The notes below the pieces were generated by a model. The model saw only the letters and a list, made by a program, of their open reading frames with translations, was not told the origin of the DNA and made no database searches. The position numbers and the translations under genes are program-made. Below, in pieces: positions 1 to 5,499 of a DNA stretch of 36,790 nt. This DNA is from Bacteroidales bacterium. GTDB taxonomy: Bacteria > Bacteroidota > Bacteroidia > Bacteroidales > F082. The stretch is taken from assembly GCA_017632935.1 (NCBI GenBank), contig JAGBQJ010000004.1, forward strand, positions 1 through 36,790, written 5' to 3'. Positions within the stretch are counted from its first letter, which is position 1. Each line of letters opens with the position of its first letter.

Positions 1-522
1 AACGGGGCATTGTCGAAGGGGAACCGCCAACGCGTCGGTCTGGACCATGCCATGATGCACGACCCGCAGGAGCTCATCCTCGACGAGACCACCTCGGGCC
101 TCGACCCCAACCAACTCATCGACATCCGCAACCTCATCTCCAACCTCGGCAAGGAGAAGACGGTGCTACTCTCCACTCACATCATGCAGGAGGTGGAAGC
201 CATCTGCGAACGGGCCATTATTATTAATAAAGGTGTGGTGGTGGCCGACGACAAGATCGATAACCTGAAACAGGACAGCGCCATGAGCAACGTGGTCATC
301 GTGGAGTTTGAGAGCGAAGTGAGCGAAGAGCTGCTCCTCAGCATCCCGCAGGTAGGACGCGTGCAGCATGTGAAGGACAACCACTGGATCCTCGAACCCC
401 AAGGCGACACCGACATCCGTGCCAACCTGATGAAGTGGTCGGTGGACCGAGGCCTCATCATCAAGACCCTCCAGAAAGAGGACTTAAGTATTGAAGAGGC
501 GTTCCAGAAGTTGACGAAATAA
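1..522 (+). CDS. gldA: ABC transporter ATP-binding protein, GldA-like, 5'-truncated by window edge
   Basis: Frame 1 is open from the first base to TAA at 520-522, so only the last 173 codons are visible. They hold the ABC signature motif (LSKGNRQRVG, codons 4-13), Walker B and D-loop (LILDETTSGLDP) and the H-loop histidine in LLSTHIMQEVEA. The motif set and the C-terminal LQKEDLSIEEAF resemble GldA, the ATPase of the gliding/T9SS-associated Gld ABC transporter of Bacteroidota (known family), but other ABC-2 ATPases share these motifs. The TTG at 10-12 encodes the Leu of the signature and is not a start. Several positions normally invariant are changed within the first 95 bases: Tyr to Asn in SKGYRQR, Ala-Gln to Asp-His after VGL, and Pro to Thr in LDEPTSG. 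They may be real or read-end errors. The stop codon lies inside a strong terminator hairpin. Confidence 0.8.
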   Translation, partial: NGALSKGNRQRVGLDHAMMHDPQELILDETTSGLDPNQLIDIRNLISNLGKEKTVLLSTHIMQEVEAICERAIIINKGVVVADDKIDNLKQDSAMSNVVIVEFESEVSEELLLSIPQVGRVQHVKDNHWILEPQGDTDIRANLMKWSVDRGLIIKTLQKEDLSIEEAFQKLTK

Positions 523-557
523 TTTTGGACGCGGCGATTGCCGCGTCCAAAATTATT
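518..557 (+). terminator. Perfect 18-bp inverted repeat terminator after the ABC ATPase gene
   Basis: Arms 518-535 and 540-557 are exact reverse complements around the loop GATT. The GC core is GGACGCGGC/GCCGCGTCC, and the outer part is AT-rich, giving the U-tract on the plus strand (and on the minus strand). The left arm includes the stop codon of the ABC gene. The GGACGC/GCGTCC core recurs in palindromes at 19653 and 27507. Confidence 0.75.
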
Positions 558-567
558 CGTATCTTTG
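538..567 (+). promoter_or_regulatory. metK promoter, Bacteroidota type
   Basis: TATCTTTG at 560-567 matches the -7 consensus TAnnTTTG, and TTG at 538-540 lies 19 bp upstream as the -33 element. Both elements overlap the preceding terminator hairpin. The expected start site, about 572-575, lies just before the riboswitch-like leader. Confidence 0.8.
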
Positions 568-578
568 CACCCGCAAAC

Positions 579-628
579 GTGGAAAGATTTGATTTGATTG
601 CAACCACAAGAAAAAATGCTAAACCAAT
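579..628 (+). promoter_or_regulatory. SAM-II-like riboswitch in the metK leader
   Basis: The leader shows the ordered SAM-II elements as I recall them: stem P1 (GTGG 579-582 with CCAC 604-607), a loop beginning GATTT (586-590) and ending TTGCAA (598-603), an A-rich joining strand (608-616), then GCTAAA (618-623). A short pseudoknot P2 can form between ATTG (597-600) and CAAT (625-628). The spacing from GATTT to TTGCAA is 18 nt, as in the SAM-II sequences I remember. It sits right after the predicted transcription start and upstream of SAM synthetase, the expected target for SAM feedback. The weak four-pair P2 and the 73-nt distance to the ATG are the reservations. Confidence 0.6.
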
Positions 629-701
629 GCTTTTTCCTTCCCCTTTCAGTCAACTGCTTCCCACACAAATTCATTATTAACTAACTAATAAACAATTTGT
701 T

Positions 702-1973
702 ATGGGTTACTATTTCACATCAGAATCCGTCTCTGAAGGTCATCCTGACAAGGTATGCGACCAGATTTCGGATGCCGTATTGGACGAGATTCTTCGTTAT
801 GACCCCAACTCAAAGGTGGCGTGCGAAACCTTGGTTACCACCGGTTTAGTCGTTGTGGCAGGCGAAATCCGCACCAACGCCTACGTTGAGATCCAGGACA
901 TCACCCGCCGCGTCATCGACCGCATCGGCTACAATAAGTCGGAATACCAGTTCGACGCCCAGTCGTGCGGCGTGCTTTCAGCCCTGCACGGACAGTCGAA
1001 CGACATCTTCCAAGGTGTGGGACGCACCAAGCCTGAAGACCAAGGTGCCGGCGACCAAGGCATGATGTTCGGCTTTGCCTGCAAGGAAACCGAGAACTAC
1101 ATGCCCCTCACCATCGACCTCTCCCACATGCTGCTCGTAGAGTTGGCCAAGATCCGCCGCGAAGGCAAGAAAATGACTTATCTCCGTCCCGACGCCAAGT
1201 CGCAGGTGACGGTGGAATATGGCGAAGGTTGGAATCCCTTGCGCATCGACACCATCGTGGTCAGCACACAGCACGACGAATTTGCCGACGACGAGACCAT
1301 GCAGAAGCAGATCGAGGCCGACGTGCGCAACATCCTCATCCCGAGGGTGAAGAAACTGCTGCCCACTCGCCTAAAGAAACTCTTCGGCGACGACATGAAG
1401 CTCTACGTCAACCCGACGGGTAAGTTCGTCATCGGCGGTCCTCACGGCGACACAGGTGTGACAGGTCGTAAGATCATCGTCGACACCTATGGTGGTCGCG
1501 GTGCCCATGGCGGTGGTGCCTTCTCGGGCAAGGACAGCTCGAAAGTGGATCGCTCGGCCGCCTATGCCGCACGCCACATTGCCAAGAACCTCGTAGCCGC
1601 TGGCGTATGCGACCAAGCCTTGGTACAGATTGCCTATGCCATCGGCAAAGCCGAGCCTGTAGGCTTCTACATCAATACCGAAGGCACCTCACATGTCTCG
1701 ATGAGCGACGCCGAGATCGCCCTCAAGGTGAAAAAGATCGTCGACTTAAGACCTTACTTCATCGTGAAGCGCTTCGGCCTCACCAACCCCATCTTTGAGG
1801 AGACGGCCTCTTACGGTCACTTCGGTCGCCAACCTGTGACCAAGCCCGTTGAGGTCTTCTATAAGGACAAGAACACCTACGTCAAAGACGGCAAGACTTA
1901 CAAAGACGTGGAGTTCTTCGGTTGGGAGAAGCTCGACCTTGTGGACAAGCTGAAGAAAGCCTTCAAGTGCTAA
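702..1973 (+). CDS. metK: S-adenosylmethionine synthetase
   Basis: Makes SAM from methionine and ATP in the cytoplasm. The N-terminus has EGHPDK with the catalytic His14 and the Mg-binding Asp16 at the same numbering as the E. coli enzyme. GAGDQG (115-120) contacts ATP. The glycine-rich [15 protein letters not shown] segment near 265-280 is the other family signature. At 423 residues it is longer than the 384 of E. coli, which agrees with the longer Bacteroidota form. The ATG at 702 is the only start next to the family N-terminus and has no Shine-Dalgarno, as usual in this phylum. It is monocistronic: its own promoter at 538-567, a SAM-II-like leader, and a strong terminator at 1992-2079. Regulation by SAM through the leader is inferred. 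Confidence 0.98.
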
Positions 1974-3832: not shown

Positions 3833-3840
3833 TTGCCTTG

Positions 3841-3915
3841 GGTGGGAGATGGGATTCGAACCCACGACCCTCGGAACCACAATCCGGTACTCTAACCAGC
3901 TGAGCTACACCCACC
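3841..3915 (-). tRNA. tRNA-His (GUG)
   Basis: The minus strand folds as a 75-nt cloverleaf: acceptor GGTGGGTG with CTCCCACC, D-arm TAGCTCAGCTGGTTAGAG, anticodon loop TTGTGGT giving GTG, and T-loop TTCGAAT. The extra 5' G (G-1) opposite C73 is the tRNA-His hallmark. One T-T mismatch in the acceptor stem and a C-A pair at the base of the anticodon stem are visible. CCA is not encoded. Promoter at 3933-3940 and terminator at 3805-3832 make it a single-gene unit. Confidence 0.95.
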
Positions 3916-5385: not shown

Positions 5386-5467
5386 GCGGGTGTGGCGGAA
5401 TTGGTAGACGCGCTAGACTTAGGATCTAGTTTCTCACGAAGTAAGGGTTCGAGTCCCTTCATCCGCA
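5386..5467 (+). tRNA. tRNA-Leu (UAG)
   Basis: 82-nt class II tRNA: acceptor GCGGGTG with CATCCGC, D-arm TGGCGGAATTGGTAGACGCG, anticodon stem CTAGA/TCTAG with loop CTTAGGA giving UAG, a long variable arm (TTTCTCACGAAGTAA), and T-loop TTCGAGT. Discriminator A5467; CCA is not encoded. No terminator follows, and tig starts 32 bp downstream, so the tRNA is probably processed from the tig-clpP-clpX transcript. Confidence 0.96.
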
Positions 5468-5499
5468 CAAGTTAAAGACAATCAATAGTTTACAAAGCA

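Follow-up and report, generated by a model that had tools for sequence, protein, structure and literature searches.

A SAM-II Riboswitch of the RF01726 Type Upstream of metK in a Bacteroidales Bacterium, and a Mid-Leader Strand That May Switch Translation Initiation

The leader RNA of the methionine adenosyltransferase gene (metK) of a Bacteroidales bacterium carries an aptamer whose membership of the SAM-II class we regard as virtually certain, and from its family we infer that it binds SAM and acts as a riboswitch of the RF01726 type. The aptamer itself is unremarkable, a well-placed representative of a family on record for Bacteroidota. The new part of this work is the comparative evidence on how such an aptamer may open or close the metK start site, since a strand in the middle of the leader coevolves with both the linker of the aptamer and the start region. 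Taken as a whole, the explanation that a SAM-sensing RF01726 aptamer and this mid-leader strand switch metK initiation seems to us moderately probable. The DNA analyzed, called here the window, is the whole stretch of 36,790 nucleotides (contig JAGBQJ010000004.1 of assembly GCA_017632935.1).

Identity and Structure of the Aptamer

A scan with the Rfam covariance models matched positions 573–632 of the window (+ strand) to RF01726 (SAM-II, "SAM-II long loop") with 62.2 bits, where the gathering score is 44, the alignment running end to end over model positions 1–60 of 60. With 4227 families searched against the 36.8 kb of the window, the E value of 8.4e-10 means that the aptamer is not due to chance, and a merely fortuitous resemblance to SAM-II was ruled out on this score and E value. 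The parts of the aptamer are as follows.

573..632, + strand: SAM-II (RF01726) aptamer (62.2 bits, E 8.4e-10)
579..582 and 604..607, + strand: P1, GUGG (5′ strand) with CCAC (3′ strand) (RF01726 alignment; covariation)
586..591, + strand: L1, GAUUUG, expected third strand of the SAM-binding triplex (RF01726 alignment; role by reference to PMC6061858)
594..596 and 625..627, + strand: P2a, UUG (5′) with CAA (3′) (covariation at the fourth position)
598..602 and 617..621, + strand: P2b, UUGCA (5′) with UGCUA (3′), with a U599.U620 mismatch (sequence)
608..616, + strand: L3, A-rich loop (sequence; RF01726 alignment)

The original prediction of a SAM-II-type riboswitch in front of a Bacteroidota metK is borne out by the RF01726 score and by the identification of the gene with TIGR01034, and the motifs on which it was built (GTGG 579–582 with CCAC 604–607, GATTT 586–590, TTGCAA 598–603 and GCTAAA 618–623) all lie at these positions. 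It had also called for the SAM-II and SAM-V covariance models, of which SAM-II was confirmed through RF01726, whereas classical SAM-II (RF00521), scanned alone over 300–1000 up to E 10, gave no match and no SAM-V family was among the six matches in the same region and up to the same E value. Its pseudoknot stem of ATTG with CAAT is indeed short in the A/U-rich part that we call P2a, but that part is not the whole pseudoknot, whose core is P2b. The suspicion of a variant that had been drawn from this short stem was not upheld, because the element has 62.2 bits to RF01726 and is similar to its relatives, and is therefore not odd. The assignment of P2a and P2b is made by analogy with SAM-II and SAM-V structures, and by the same analogy the U599.U620 mismatch would be the expected position of SAM (PMC6061858; the residue mapping is ours).

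The predicted compensatory changes in P1 and P2 across related metK leaders were found at the second pair of P1 and the fourth pair of P2a. The second P1 pair is T-A in 146 leaders, A-T in 22 and C-G in one, so that all 169 are paired, against a permuted mean of 129.8 and a maximum of 140, and in the outermost of the four, G-C is found in 165 leaders and A-T in 4. At the fourth position of P2a, 133 of 169 leaders are paired (permuted mean 97.2, maximum 110); the remaining P2a positions do not pair above permutation in these leaders. P2b and the inner two pairs of P1 were fixed by the search pattern, thus their invariance proves nothing, although one diverged leader (L180) carries UUGUA/UACUA, a compensatory change of a P2b pair. 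Nine leaders (L060, L188, L329, L336, L339 and L342–L345) have an extra hairpin of about 15–35 nt within the linker between L1 and P2.

Within its own genome (2.86 Mb, 92% complete) the element is the single RF01726 match at E ≤ 0.001, and the idea of multiple SAM-II copies was discarded at this threshold. A SAM-I riboswitch (RF00162) was likewise rejected, there being no match at E ≤ 0.001 in a scan in which three control genomes did match. RF00521 had no match in the genome at E ≤ 0.001, in a scan in which no control matched; this model does match other Bacteroidota.

Gene, Promoter and Distribution

The aptamer is placed between a putative promoter and the start of metK, at a distance of 69 nt from its AUG, with the following elements around it.

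518..557, + strand: perfect 18-bp terminator-like hairpin behind the upstream ABC-ATPase gene, overlapping the metK promoter (one site found, 0.4 expected from shuffles)
538..540, + strand: putative −33 element (TTG) of the metK promoter, within the loop of the 518..557 hairpin (sequence)
560..567, + strand: putative −7 box TATCTTTG (TA-n(1-3)-TTTG pattern in related leaders)
702..1973, + strand: metK, methionine adenosyltransferase, 423 aa (TIGR01034, 510 bits, cut-off 309)

The arrangement TTG(538–540)-N19-TATCTTTG(560–567) is a putative promoter of the Bacteroides type, whose consensus is quoted in PMC7366714. As it adjoins the aptamer, transcription would be expected to start near the first bases of the aptamer, in agreement with the original prediction, which had the riboswitch begin right after the predicted transcription start. 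Among 169 related leaders, 160 have the pattern TA-n(1-3)-TTTG no more than 72 nt upstream of P1, compared to 15% of shuffles; a TTG 17–25 nt upstream of the −7 box is present in only 71 of the 169, and the −33 element is weakly supported for this reason. An intrinsic terminator behind the aptamer was looked for and rejected: none lies between 632 and 702, and the sole site found, 518–557, is upstream of the aptamer.

The prediction had presented SAM-II in this lineage as a useful extension, which it is not, given that the class has been in print for the phylum since 2005 and that 129 of the 198 genomes sampled from the order have an RF01726 match. Occurrences in the Bacteroides group were reported, with a row for B. 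thetaiotaomicron, by Corbino et al. 2005 (PMC1273637), Barrick and Breaker 2007 (PMC2258182) list SAM-II in Bacteroidetes, and Weinberg et al. 2010 (PMC2864571) have the entry "SAM-II long loops / Bacteroidetes, marine / RF01726". At the other ranks, RF01726 was found in 53 of 60 sampled genus genomes (27 of 27 where completeness reached 90% and contamination stayed at or below 5%), 70 of 80 family genomes and 63 of 395 phylum genomes.

Linkage to metK is close to exclusive. From longer lists of matches 278 loci were fetched, four places twice, which leaves 274 distinct matches, and metK stands behind 270 of them; in the later batch of 40 loci it does so without exception. Above the cut-off, the gene is metK in 263 of 264 cases and metH in the other one; the latter (L097, G083:C269, 151–209, 66.6 bits to RF01726) is in a genome whose other copy (L104) precedes metK. 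Below the cut-off, L187 is in front of an O-acetylhomoserine aminocarboxypropyltransferase (metY-like) gene, and L186 and L197, which lack metK, look like chance matches.

Coevolution of a Mid-Leader Strand

The leader between the aptamer and metK contains three further elements.

633..676, + strand: mid-leader, C-rich and G-poor candidate strand of the expression platform (composition; coevolution tests)
647..653, + strand: anti-linker CAGUCAA, predicted partner of the aptamer UUGAUUG 594–600 (minimum-energy fold; covariation in relatives)
660..706, + strand: predicted start-codon hairpin CCCA.ACAAAUU..UUAUUA / UAAUAA..AAUUUGU..UGGG, in which U and G of the AUG are paired (fold z −3.2)

At 632–671, the mid-leader of the window consists of 38% C and 5% G. 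On average over 169 leaders, the middle has 27% C and 10% G, and the sequence upstream of the promoter 16% C and 15% G. The tests of coevolution compared the duplex energy of a leader's own partners with that of partners taken from other leaders, corrected by dinucleotide shuffles. The starting set of 238 leaders, all with the strict motif and followed by metK, was reduced to 222 distinct ones, to 181 after dropping near-duplicates, then to 178 and finally to 169, with linkers of 4–9 nt and platforms of 40–160 nt, L252 and L258 having been removed by hand for a misplaced start. A subset of 140 comprises the leaders of 52–100 nt. L097 and fourteen RF01726-listed loci of L001–L238 that fail the strict motif or the metK test stayed outside these tests, and the leaders fetched later were used only for the counts of metK linkage and of GAGG leaders and for the linker hairpins.

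The mid-leader strand coevolves with the aptamer linker. Pairing of the linker (UUUG-N-UUG) with its own mid-leader amounts to −1.92 kcal/mol against −1.02 kcal/mol on permutation (z −7.6, reached in 0 of 5000 permutations, n = 169), in permutations that do not keep phylogeny. When each of the 46 distinct linkers is represented by a single row, z is −5.1. Without the shuffle correction z is −9.1, and in the subset of 140 it is −6.8, or −3.2 for the linker core alone. The 5′ strand of P1 also shows a signal with the mid-leader (z −3.0, n = 169; −3.5, n = 140). The partner of the linker follows GCTAAA and precedes the start at median distances of 19 and 45 nt, respectively, and single examples are GAGTAG/CTACTC (L038), GGATG/CATCC (L132, L138 and L135) and GGACT/AGTCC (L131). 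A leader's own platform has a mean rank of 0.36 for its linker, where chance would give 0.5, thus the signal is one of the population and is not clear for each leader.

The same mid-leader strand coevolves with the start region, as z is −4.6 for positions −15 to +6 and −3.9 for the 25 bases before the start (n = 140). Bases −25 to −10 give little signal (z −1.5) and the first 30 coding bases none (z 0.1) against the mid-leader in that subset. Four negative controls, also with n = 140, are flat: the linker paired with the first 30 coding bases (z 0.2) or the 25 bases before the start (0.1), and the linker reversed (−0.8) or reverse-complemented (1.2). Two other candidate pairings were dropped. 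One would join the first nine coding bases (AUGGGA-type start) to a UUCCC motif; it is attractive in the window, but over 169 leaders it shows no excess over shuffles (0.02 kcal/mol, z −1.5); the 3′ strand of P2, considered as a general partner of the mid-leader, gives no overall signal (z 0.4, n = 169).

A separate case is that of the leaders with P1 = GAGG (for example L037, L043, L051 and L319–L348; mostly from the Flavobacterium-like set sampled at class level), many of which contain [CT]TTTAG, the complement of CTAAA[GA] in the 3′ strand of P2. This motif is found in 30 of 49 distinct GAGG leaders, compared to 2.1 in shuffles, and in 29 of these 30 its first base matches the one that follows GCTAAA, with a Fisher p of 4e-5 that is optimistic because these leaders are closely related. 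Judging from these motifs, [CT]TTTAG may be an anti-pseudoknot strand, other than the one in Bacteroidales.

Folding of the Leader and of the Start Site

Ensemble folds, computed without the pseudoknot, point in the same direction. Own aptamers form 22.6 expected pairs with the rest of the leader, against 17.5–18.4 for swapped aptamers (n = 169). Moreover, with its own aptamer a leader gains 0.050 in the unpaired fraction of −15 to +6, compared to 0.020 ± 0.003 with swapped ones, and loses 3.1 pairs between start and middle instead of 1.8 (n = 140, 60 swaps). An aptamer that frees the start and removes these pairs fits the needs of a translational OFF switch, and the folds suggest that the unbound aptamer would free the start and the bound one would let it close.

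For the window itself, the start hairpin at 660–706 has a z of −3.2, with one of 200 shuffles as stable, and all 15 related leaders of the same type are predicted to form it; for three or four other leaders of the genus it is not predicted. In the minimum-energy fold, this hairpin coexists with the anti-linker helix, and no change at the start is predicted for the window's own leader (unpaired 0.360 vs 0.362). Among 59 leaders with strong pairing between start and middle, the overlap with the anti-linker reaches three or more bases in just 12, so that strict mutual exclusion of the two helices is not demonstrated. Given this limited overlap, an ensemble effect that is small on average and its absence from the window's leader, we are evenly divided on whether a two-helix translational platform is the main mechanism.

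Proposed Mechanism and Alternatives

As we conceive it, the SAM-II aptamer of the RF01726 type would sense the product of the very enzyme it controls, which amounts to feedback on metK. With little SAM, the strand between P1 and P2 (GGAAAGAUUUG-linker-UUG) would pair with the mid-leader and leave the pseudoknot unclosed; the mid-leader strand would thereby be drawn off the start-codon region and metK be translated. When SAM is present, the pseudoknot would close and release the mid-leader strand, which would fold onto the start region and stop initiation. We infer both the direction of the switch and its translational level. Bacteroidota lack Shine-Dalgarno sites and mRNA structure tunes their initiation, as described in PMC6847099. 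An extension to the Bacteroidota SAM-II switches in general is one that we advance with slightly more doubt than belief: they would share a platform of two helices in which one leader strand chooses between the L1/P2 linker and a start region free of a Shine-Dalgarno sequence, SAM controlling initiation through start-codon structure alone from 45–170 nt away, and Flavobacteriia would reach the same end with a strand directed against the other strand of the pseudoknot (CUUUAG against CUAAAG).

Control by Rho, which we think rather unlikely, would use much of the same leader. The closed pseudoknot would leave the mid-leader single-stranded, Rho would load there and transcription would stop before or early in metK, and without SAM the aptamer strand would mask the mid-leader. 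The C-rich, G-poor composition given above, both in the window and over the 169 leaders, would also suit Rho-dependent termination, the stretch of the window from aptamer to start contains no intrinsic terminator, and the masking helix is common to this model and to the translational one. Against it, the C bias may be general in Bacteroidota leaders, and Rho leaves the coevolution of the mid-leader with −15 to +6 unexplained. The aptamer might instead act alone through its pseudoknot near the 5′ end, on transcript stability or early elongation, with the leader behind it a simple spacer. In 2 of the 238 leaders (L196 in G666 and L143 in G139) GCTAAA or the aptamer end lies 4 and 7 nt before metK, and a long leader is therefore dispensable in some lineages. 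Yet in these two the pseudoknot could cover the start directly, as PMC6061858 proposes for metX SAM-II and SAM-V, and the leader has a strand that coevolves with the aptamer; we consider this reading improbable. Very improbable, in our opinion, is the reading that the RNA only resembles SAM-II and has a changed ligand preference. SAM aptamer variants that recognize different ligands have been reported (PMC10853860), but here the RF01726 match is full length with an unchanged conserved core, and the linkage to metK is nearly exclusive.

Should the two-helix translational reading be true, the leader would show in detail how a riboswitch can act on initiation where there is no Shine-Dalgarno sequence. 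The Bacteroidales leaders with coevolved pairings come from many families, and metK feedback appears to be carried by the RF01726 riboswitch in much of the order, which gives the system value as a model.

Comparison with Known Systems

The window aptamer matches the SAM-II long loops of RF01726, described by Weinberg et al. 2010 (PMC2864571), over its full length, comes from the same phylum and presents no difference from them. In the literature on SAM-II, RF01726, Bacteroid-/Flavobacteri- and metK, judged mostly from listings and leaving supplementary files aside, we found this expression platform described nowhere, nor did the main text of PMC2864571 give one for RF01726. With classical SAM-II (RF00521, SAM_alpha; Corbino et al. 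2005, PMC1273637) it has in common one stem and a pseudoknot at the transcription start, a place upstream of a methionine/SAM gene and occurrences in the Bacteroides group. However, the RF00521 model has no match in the window, and many classical copies have intrinsic terminators (PMC1273637), of which the window has none behind the aptamer. SAM-II is held to control translation in the metA leader of S. meliloti as well (PMC9373788), where the pseudoknot is predicted to mask the Shine-Dalgarno sequence; unlike there, the start in the window is 69 nt from the aptamer and a Shine-Dalgarno site is unexpected. SAM-V (PMC6061858) shares a related H-type pseudoknot, a near-identical SAM site and a short P2a, and it differs in that its models do not match the window region scanned.

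Tandem Elements and Other Observations

In three genomes of one other Bacteroidota family, a SAM-I/IV aptamer (RF01725) is followed in tandem by a SAM-II-like one (L187, G353:C79, − strand; G737:C38:13614–13852; G721:C205:22256–22488). RF01725 scores 54.7–58.8 bits there, above its cut-off, and the SAM-II-like partner about 30–32 bits, below the cut-offs of RF00521 and RF01726. L187 also has an apparent terminator, whose TTTTTTAGC is complementary to GCTAAAAA. For the order SAM-I/IV then SAM-II, two examples are in print in PMC9481103, which also reports tandem SAM-II. Pairs of RF00521-like matches 100–150 nt apart, which make up tandem SAM-II arrangements, occur in six genomes of the same family as the RF01725 tandems (G741:C81, G746:C44, G432:C1, G732:C14, G752:C15 and C26, and G734:C48).

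Behind metK, the window has nested inverted repeats at 1992–2079, in which a 20-bp perfect palindrome (2013–2032 / 2041–2060) sits inside a terminator-like repeat (1992–2007 / 2064–2079). Besides the aptamer, the remaining Rfam matches in the window are two tRNAs, a tRNA-His (GTG) at 3840–3914 on the − strand and a tRNA-Leu (TAG) at 5386–5468 on the + strand.
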